A DNA stretch of 64,000 bases, from contig JASSKH010000005.1 of NCBI GenBank assembly GCA_031763025.1, positions 7,871,514 to 7,935,513 on the forward strand. The letters are read 5' to 3'. A program made the translations under genes and the position numbers. The notes beneath the pieces are model-generated. The model was not told the origin of the DNA. It worked only from the letters and a program-made list of their open reading frames with translations, and did no database searches. Below are positions 15,002 through 53,624 of this stretch, one piece after another (the first letter of the stretch is position 1; each line of letters starts with the position of its first letter). The stretch is from Macrocystis pyrifera. Its lineage: Eukaryota; Sar; Phaeophyceae; Laminariales; Laminariaceae.

Positions 15002-18000
15002 ATGACCGATGTGGATGTCTGGCAAGCTGCCCGCCAAGGCCTGCTGGAGGATGTCCAGGTGCGTGTTTACTTCGCTAGCATATTGGACGACCGAACCAGG
15101 AGATTCGTGGTACAGTAGGCCTTTTACGTACCAAACGTGAACGCTCAGCTCCAGTACGCGCAGAGAGGGCTACTATAAGGGGGCGAGAGTCGACAAGGAA
15201 ACGCATCTCAATGATGCTGCTGGTATAGCCACCCCGGTGCTGCTGCACAGAGCCCCGAGCAACGCCCACGGGGTTCCCTGGTCCGCTGTATTTTGGGTAG
15301 GATTCGCTGTTAATGGCGGCCCCGCGGCGGTCTATTTCGTCGATAAACTTCAAAGCCGTTCTTTCTGTGTTGCAGTCGTGATATCTGTGGGGGCACGTGC
15401 TGCTCGAGCGTCCAGGCCCTTTGCACTCCACAGCAACAGCAGTGCTATATCGTGTTCTACGCCCCTATTCCTGTCCCCGTCCACTCATATGCATACCCTT
15501 TGGATGCCCAAACTTCCACACTTGAGATGCCGGTCTGCGCAGTGGTTGTGTGAGCTTTGCTCCACATCACCTGGTAGTGATCATCAGTCACCCCACCAGC
15601 AGACCCGCAAGCAGCATGTTCATCTTGCACTTTCTTGAGGGCAATCGATGATATATACGAGTTGGCTCGTGGCTCAAGCCACGTACGACGTACCTGCTCC
15701 CTGCTACTACTGCTGCTGCTGCTGCTGCCGCGGTCGCTGCTGTACTCGGCTCACTCCTCCCCTCGCCCCTAGTTTTATTGCTGCAGTTTGAAGTTCACAC
15801 ATATCATAGGCTCGACTGCGCAAAACAAGCGCGGGCACAAGTTGCCTCTGCCTGCCTACCTACTACTGCTGTCTGCCAGTGACAGCACACAGCAGAGTAG
15901 GGAGGAGGGAGAGATGCCAGCAGACGGTAGGGCGCTGTCATCGGTCATCCGCGGGCCAACTACCCGCTGCTCCTGCGCCTTGTGACACATATTATTATTA
16001 TTATTATTATTATTATTATTATTATTATTATTATTATTATTATTATTATTATTATTATTATTATTATTATTATTATTATTATTATTATTATTATTATTAT
16101 TATTATTATTATTTATTATTATTATTATTATTATTATTATTATTATTATTATTATTATTATTATTATTATTATTATTATTATTATTATTATTATTATTAT
16201 TATTATTATTATTATTATTATTATTATTATTATTATTATTATTATTATTATTATTATTATTATTATTATTATTATTATTATTATTATTATTATTATTGTT
16301 ATTATTATTATTATTTCGGGGGGCCATAGTAAATAGGACCAAATATTGTTAGTAAAAATATGGAAATTTATGGGTGTTTGTGTGCACCGTAGGTCCTATT
16401 AACTATAGTCCCCCGTAATAATTCCAGGTGTTAATAGTATGTTCGCTGACAATAAAGAATGGATTTGGCCAAAATAAGGTACACCTGTTCCATTTGAGCC
16501 AAAAACAGTCACATTCTGAAACCAAGTAAAAAGCACACGCCACGAGCGGTGTTACGGCCATGCATGAGAAATCATTACCGTGGTCGTAAAAGTAACTTTT
16601 TTTTTTTTGCGCCTGTGAGGCTGAATCTTATGGGAGCCGAAACCGGAAAACGGAACTGGCATGCACTTCGTTTTTCGTATGGCCCAGATTCGTATATCGA
16701 CTTTCGTCTTTTCCTATATTATGGTGTTTAGTGTAGGTATGCCGGGGTTTTGTTTGAGTTGGGAGGACGTTGGAGGGAGGAGTTACCGCAATAATATTTG
16801 AATTCGGCGGACACAGCAGTACACGGCACCCACGCACCCTGTTTGGTGCCCGCCGGGGAACATGGAGCCTGCTTTCGCGGACTCGAGCTTGCTGGACTGG
16901 GTTGGCTTCCTTCGACGAAGGGTCCCCAAGCTTGGCAGTCTGCTGCAGCATCAAGGAGCAGTGCGTTGACATTGCTGAAAGCCCAAGAACACATCAACTG
17001 CCAAGAACAAACGGTGTAGTCAGTTGTTCGCCGTCACCGGAGCTTGCATTCTCTAGATACCGCTATATGCCAGGATACCGTGTCAGAGATACCGAGAGAC
17101 AGAACAGCAATAGTAGCGATGATATGTACAAGTGTTAGGCCCGCCACGTTATGCCTCCTGTGTGGGGTTCAAAACCAGCTTTGGCCAGCTCTGGGACCGT
17201 ACACAACTAGTGTCTGGTTTCGTCTGGCCAGGCCTTTTCCGATCGAAGTACAGAAAATATTTTAGAGATTTCTGTTTTTTGGCCATCGATAAGATTCGAT
17301 AAGTCAGATCTGGGCCGAAAATATTCCTGGATCTCTCTACAAACCTTGTTTTGTTTTCCGGTTTCGGCTCCCATGAGGCTGACTCTTATGGGACCAGAAA
17401 CCAGAAAAACAGAACAGCATTTCCCCTTTATGGTGTTGAAACCCACACAGCCGATGGGAGATATTATTTGGTATGCCGCGGCAGGAAAAAGCTGCGCTTT
17501 CAACACACAACACCTACCACTGCCGATGATCCCTCGCCTCACAGGGCACGAGATGACGCCAAACCTTCGAGGCTTTATGCTCCACTGCCTGTGCTCGCTA
17601 CCAAGTTTAAGGGTCGTTGATGCTGTGTGGCCGGGGTTCTCGCTCGAGACGTGAGAGCCTGGCCCATTTCTGGCCCGTTTTTTCCAAGACGAAACTGGGT
17701 CCCATTTCCGTCTGGAAAAACACCGGCCAGAAATGGGTCAGGCTCCAATGTCTTGAGCGAGAACTCCTGCCACACAGCTTTAACGATCCTCAAACTTGGT
17801 AGCGAGCACTCTCAGGGCAGTGGGGCATACGGCCTCGAAGGTTTGACGTCATCTCGTATGACGTGCCCTGCGCGGCGAGAAATCGGAGGCGGCGGCGGGT
17901 GCTGGGTGTTGAAAGCACAGGTTTTCATATTTGAGCAGTGAGCGGAAATGGCTCATGTCTACCGACGGCACTACCCTGGGGTTTCTACGCGACGAAGGGA

Positions 18001-53624: not shown

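Follow-up and report, generated by a model that had tools for sequence, protein, structure and literature searches.

We identified in the giant kelp Macrocystis pyrifera a 15-exon gene of about 39 kb whose predicted product is a single protein with, in this order, ankyrin repeats, a coiled coil, a kinase domain of the RLK/Pelle-like type, and a RING finger. The sequence supports this assignment, and the best evidence that the four elements form one protein is their shared order in a paralog elsewhere in the same genome. A single protein of this order had been proposed in the initial annotation, and the paralog strengthens that reading. The window analyzed, a stretch of 64,000 nucleotides (nt), corresponds to C219:7871514-7935513, and searches of the kelp's own genome covered 537,376,219 bases in 223 contigs.

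Exon structure and predicted domains

The exon chain was rebuilt from the window using ankyrin-like frames and base-by-base reading, and it comprises 15 exons on the + strand (15002-53624) with no internal stop. The preferred spliced model, in which exons 5 and 9 start at 36269 and 41488, respectively, has 674 amino acids, and all 14 of its introns have GT-AG boundaries, at sites that we picked. Counting the preferred one, 1 to 14 frame-keeping choices were found per junction within 30 nt; only junctions 3-4 and 12-13 had a single choice. The GC content is 0.645 in the coding sequence versus 0.486 in the introns, and the third codon position is the GC-richest in 12 of the 15 exons, the exceptions being exons 1, 4, and 15 (with exon 9 taken from 41482). 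The 15-exon gene annotated initially at 15002-53624 was thus confirmed, with the chain rebuilt and domain matches far above chance. Its 674 codons (673 amino acids plus the stop) are reproduced by the exon 4-5 junctions 35022/36282 and 35041/36301. Our exon limits describe the same kind of chain, but the start of exon 9 was shifted to 41488 and the exon 4-5 join proved loose.

Three to four ankyrin repeats, followed by an acidic linker, occupy the N terminus. Exon 1 (15002..15058) carries the start codon and the first ankyrin helix (MTDVDVWQAARQGLLEDVQ) and together with exon 2 (27416..27502) completes the Ank_2 match, which has a Pfam value of 8.3e-14 over residues 8-95 of the spliced protein (676-amino-acid version). 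Exons 2 and 3 (32741..32868) were assigned to the ankyrin region by frame search and Pfam, and exon 4 (34847..35018) holds the last ankyrin repeat (ARDFRGKTPADVIG), ahead of the acidic linker.

The linker continues into exon 5 (36269..36457; 5' end uncertain), which also encodes the first part of the coil, and the heptads run on in register through exon 6 (37413..37504). In residues 181-236 the hydrophobic heptad is kept across the exon 5-6 join, and none of 1,000 shuffles reached the score, which is our own measure rather than that of a dedicated coil predictor. This stretch holds five glycines, and the Pfam coil families over it scored below their cut-offs. The same register places V240, A243, L247, and A250, encoded by exon 7, at core positions; since it is kept to about residue 250, the helix likely continues into exon 7, where the sub-threshold Pfam matches also extend.

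The kinase domain (PK_Tyr_Ser-Thr, 5.5e-38) spans residues 282-543 of the 676-amino-acid version. In exon 7 (39920..40058) the kinase N-lobe begins and is encoded as far as GRG, after what is likely the last part of the coil; exon 8 (40706..40831) continues the N-lobe with the VAIK lysine and the alpha-C glutamate, and exon 9 (41488..41549) reaches the hinge. The hinge, alpha-E, and HRD are encoded by exon 10 (43661..43841); the catalytic loop Asn, DAG, and the activation segment by exon 11 (49871..50049); and the C-lobe, from SLGVV, by exon 12 (50499..50660). The C-lobe ends in exon 13 (51161..51307), which also encodes the N-terminal half of the RING (CRIC); the other half (PCFH...CPVCR) is in exon 14 (52561..52684). 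The RING match (zf-C3HC4_3, 1.7e-12) covers residues 563-610 of the same version. Exon 15 (53445..53624) encodes a Gly/Ala-rich tail and the stop; it is of low complexity and has weak codon bias. Its join to exon 14 (GEFAQ/TYAP) is supported by the paralog, which reads ...GQFQVTYS in one frame.

The gene is bracketed by two others, a tRNA dimethylguanosine methyltransferase upstream (PF02005; pieces at 225-977 and 7780-8913, + strand) and an FGGY carbohydrate kinase downstream (PF02782; piece at 57940-58767, - strand). Intron 10 contains LINE-like endonuclease and reverse transcriptase pieces (45761-48385, + strand), oriented like the gene itself; their Exo_endo_phos_2 and RVT_1 matches are weak and below the Pfam cut-offs. 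A 326-bp TAT array lies in intron 1 (15990-16315), and runs of 117 G (37968-38084; 98% match) and 84 G (42626-42709) lie in introns 6 and 9, respectively. A short dispersed repeat with frames like NRTYGTHKNLYI occurs in introns of the gene (26350-26697, + strand; 48369-48758, - strand) and in one intron of the paralog (near 454060 of contig C218; L025). Ten long intron ORFs, a subset of all intron ORFs, were without a Pfam match at a threshold of E 0.01.

A paralog with the same domain order

In the search of the kelp genome with the whole protein, 66 of 359 candidates were scored and 67 matches were listed. The gene itself was recovered with 12 of its 15 exons as separate matches (88 to 98% identity) and with exons 6 and 14 inside longer ones (44% and 69%), while exon 1 was missed. 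A second locus, on contig C218, matched the kinase (55%) and, some 5 kb away, the RING (55%), and no RING match outside these two loci was present among the 67 matches listed.

Ankyrin, coil-like frames, kinase, and RING were found on the + strand of C218 within 22 kb of the 60 kb read. The ankyrin pieces lie at 434162-434295, 434964-435038, and 436267-436318 (spliced, with arbitrary outer ends; Pfam Ank 1.7e-19), and the kinase exons lie between 448160 and 453106 (Pfam 4.1e-32). Between them, coil-like frames at 442897, 444792, 445516, and about 447090 resemble the coil in unspliced DNA. The search for such frames used a score and threshold of our own with no control and gave six matches: the first three of these frames and three more (437868, 441143, and 441635) that were set aside as Ala-rich low-complexity frames. 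The frame at about 447090 was noticed on reading the sequence. In a single open frame of 374 amino acids (454691-455812), the last part of the kinase lobe (GDDRPRLQHLIEHMERV, identified by eye) is followed by a long linker of low complexity and then by the RING (zf-C3HC4_3, 8.2e-12). The paralog is a partial reading and not a finished gene model, and its ankyrin-to-kinase stretch is unspliced.

The two kinase domains are identical at 104 of 221 aligned positions (47%; E 1e-54). One kinase intron position is common to both genes (REAR/VLMM and REVQ/VLTT), whereas the other comparable ones differ, so that the duplication looks old. Because of this match the exon 9 start at 41488 is the most likely one, rather than 41482, and the spacing of receptor-like kinases also favors 41488.

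Kinase and RING domains

Compared with solved structures, the kinase domain scored highest with SYMRK (140.5 bits), BAK1 (138.9), and 2qkw (annotated as "Protein kinase" and which we take to be Pto; 130.6), followed by BRI1 (123.3), IRAK4 (108.9), and CTR1 (83.6), among the best 60 of 2401 sequences. That of the paralog gave a similar ranking among the best 60 of 108, with SymRK (147), CERK1 (136.4), and BRI1 (133.3) ahead of IRAK4 (104.1), one EGFR entry (81.1), and CTR1 (72.2). These rankings, which are against solved structures only, support a kinase closest to the plant receptor-like kinases and then to IRAK4, and they are in favor of the RLK/Pelle-type assignment made initially.

By eye, the domain retains the VAIK Lys, the alpha-C Glu, HRDVKPAN including its Asn, and the Asp of the DxG motif. 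However, the DFG motif reads DAG in this gene and DVG in the paralog, a change that the initial annotation did not mention and that casts doubt on activity as a kinase. In the glycine loop the window gene reads GRGSSA, with Ala for the third Gly, and the paralog GRGGFG. These replacements suggest that catalysis may be weak or absent, and whether the domain is a working kinase is uncertain from its residues. There is accordingly a sizable possibility, short of an even chance, that the domain is a pseudokinase whose sole role, on binding nucleotide or a partner, is to switch the RING or to act as its scaffold. The DFG Phe is part of the regulatory spine, and its replacement in both genes, together with the glycine-loop Ala in one of them, fits this explanation; the retention of the catalytic Lys and Glu, the HRD Asp, the Asn, and the DxG Asp argues against it.

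The nearest solved structures to the RING, which is of the C3HC4 type, are cIAP1 (BIRC2) and MDM2, and an Arg directly follows its last Cys. In each of the two RINGs an Asp replaces one zinc cysteine, at different positions: ligand 6 (ACEED, exon 14, 52561-52684) in the window gene and ligand 8 (CPVD, L025:5627-5806 on C218) in the paralog. In some RINGs, that of RBX1 among them, an Asp can serve as a zinc ligand. From these features, the protein is likely a working E3.

Evidence for a single gene

The kinase-RING link does not depend on splicing, since the kinase ends, and the first cysteines of the RING appear, within exon 13 alone. The ankyrin-to-coil (exon 4-5) and coil-to-kinase (exon 6-7) links do. 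The exon 4-5 join is weak: 14 choices within 30 nt keep the frame, the preferred one included, and the models that close the frame give proteins of 652 to 718 amino acids. Exon 5 starts that at least one exon 4 donor can join in frame include 36269, 36282, 36316, and 36345, and coding bias in exon 5 is strong only from 36344 on. Both the number of solutions and the late onset of clear coding bias would suit two adjacent genes, an ankyrin gene (exons 1 to 4) and a coil-kinase-RING gene (exons 5 to 15). We nevertheless regard such a division as very unlikely. In the exon 5 frame no ATG was found upstream of the coil back to the upstream stop, so that a separate coil-kinase-RING gene would need another start exon further upstream, and the frame beyond exon 4 enters GT-rich, intron-like DNA. 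In addition, the order and the common strand of ankyrin, coil-like frames, and kinase recur in the paralog, although its ankyrin-kinase stretch is likewise unspliced. A decayed or unexpressed copy within a repeat-rich stretch, as the great length of the introns, their repeats, and the LINE-like insert might suggest, is highly improbable given about 2 kb of exons without an internal stop or frameshift, with intact motifs and codon bias.

Other kinases in the genome and other collections

A kinase-family search of the kelp genome, with 147 of 493 candidates scored, gave 145 matches; the list omits the window gene itself and is therefore incomplete. Twenty of these places were examined by tblastn with an E threshold of 1; 10 of them gave a match, in all cases to the kinase (best, 3.5e-14), and no ankyrin or RING match was found in the 20 stretches at this threshold. 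Judged by sequence, these 20 places are not close relatives of the window gene. Many kinase-domain matches fell on contigs C133 and C198, which suggests that a kinase family has expanded locally on each of the two.

No match was found in viral contigs, and none of 11 prokaryote-contig stretches that matched a peptide pattern was a relative. Of 50,697 phage records, 33 matched; identity was below 60% in every case, no match extended over 80% of the query, and the ten listed of the 33 all fall on the kinase region. Brown algae are not expected in the viral, prokaryote, or phage collections, so absence there says little.

Comparison with known domain combinations

The plant RING E3 KEG has the order RING, kinase, ankyrin, and HERC2-like repeats. 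The kelp protein resembles it in that a single E3 combines a RING and a kinase with ankyrin repeats but differs in having ankyrin first and RING last and in possessing a coil, and Pfam gave no HERC2-like match in it at E up to 1. With its RING last and without a HERC2-like match, the kelp protein is not a KEG, and the two may have a common origin. Self-ubiquitination of KEG is reported to be affected by its kinase state (PMC5385374).

The comparison set used initially contained KEG, RIPK4, and Mind bomb, which were taken up here, but it missed the similar plant U-box kinases. The latter have the order USP, coil, RLCK kinase, and U-box, the U-box being without zinc ligands. They (PUB) are like the kelp protein in having a coil, an RLK-type kinase, and then a C-terminal RING-fold ligase; the difference is that USP and U-box stand where the kelp protein has ankyrin and RING. 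Neither USP nor U-box was detected in the kelp protein by Pfam at E up to 1, and the Cys/His ligands of a RING are present. U-box proteins with usp and kinase domains are on record (PMC8837765).

With RIPK4/ANKK1 the kelp protein shares the combination of kinase and ankyrin, but its ankyrin repeats precede the kinase and a RING is present. In RIPK4/ANKK1 and the plant ankyrin kinases, a TKL-type kinase comes first and ankyrin last, with no known RING. E3s of the Mind bomb and XBAT types have ankyrin repeats and a C-terminal RING and are not known to carry a kinase domain; the kelp protein is alike in the first two and adds the kinase. Judged by Pfam against the Mind bomb layout of MIB/HERC2 plus ZZ and no kinase, it falls outside that family. 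The ankyrin-RING link is described as old (PMC4327156).

In the portions available of the open-licence literature, no report of an ankyrin-coil-kinase-RING architecture was found. The accessory-domain table of the P. infestans kinome has ankyrin on three kinases and no RING (PMC3019232, seen in part), and the available parts of a Saprolegnia paper (PMC3681718) and of the Saccharina genome paper (PMC12116465) contained nothing bearing on the architecture. What is new here is the domain order with its coil, the occurrence in a brown alga, the existence of a paralog, and the absence of the DFG Phe from both genes.

Proposed function and significance

We hold the chances to be about evenly balanced that this is one giant kelp gene for a multidomain E3 in which the coil pairs chains and the kinase part gates ubiquitination. 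The coil would pair two chains, as RING ligases often need, and the ankyrin repeats would hold a target. The kinase domain, either active or ATP-switched, could phosphorylate the target or its own protein, and this step would determine which of the two, target or ligase, is ubiquitinated by the RING. By analogy with KEG, phosphorylation or nucleotide state may decide what the RING marks. By holding a target and having its RING set by the kinase, the protein would turn a phosphorylation signal into the removal of a bound regulator. The division of labor put forward in the initial annotation, in which ankyrin repeats select, the kinase senses or phosphorylates, and the RING ubiquitinates, is a reasonable, though indirect, reading of the domains.

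More tentatively, the two genes could belong to a family of ankyrin-coil-kinase-RING proteins found in brown algae or perhaps more widely in stramenopiles, with at least two members in giant kelp, that came to fuse a receptor-type kinase and an E3 independently of KEG and the U-box kinases and in which kinases without the DFG Phe gate the RING. Such kinases would act as phospho- or nucleotide-gated RING switches. In plants, KEG and the U-box kinases represent two designs, at least, in which a kinase and an E3 are fused. The brown alga appears to add a third layout, which its paralog shares; if an independent origin is shown, this would suggest that fusion of a receptor-type kinase with an E3 took place more than once in multicellular photosynthetic lineages. 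The kelp protein provides a concrete case for asking whether the kinase gates the ligase.
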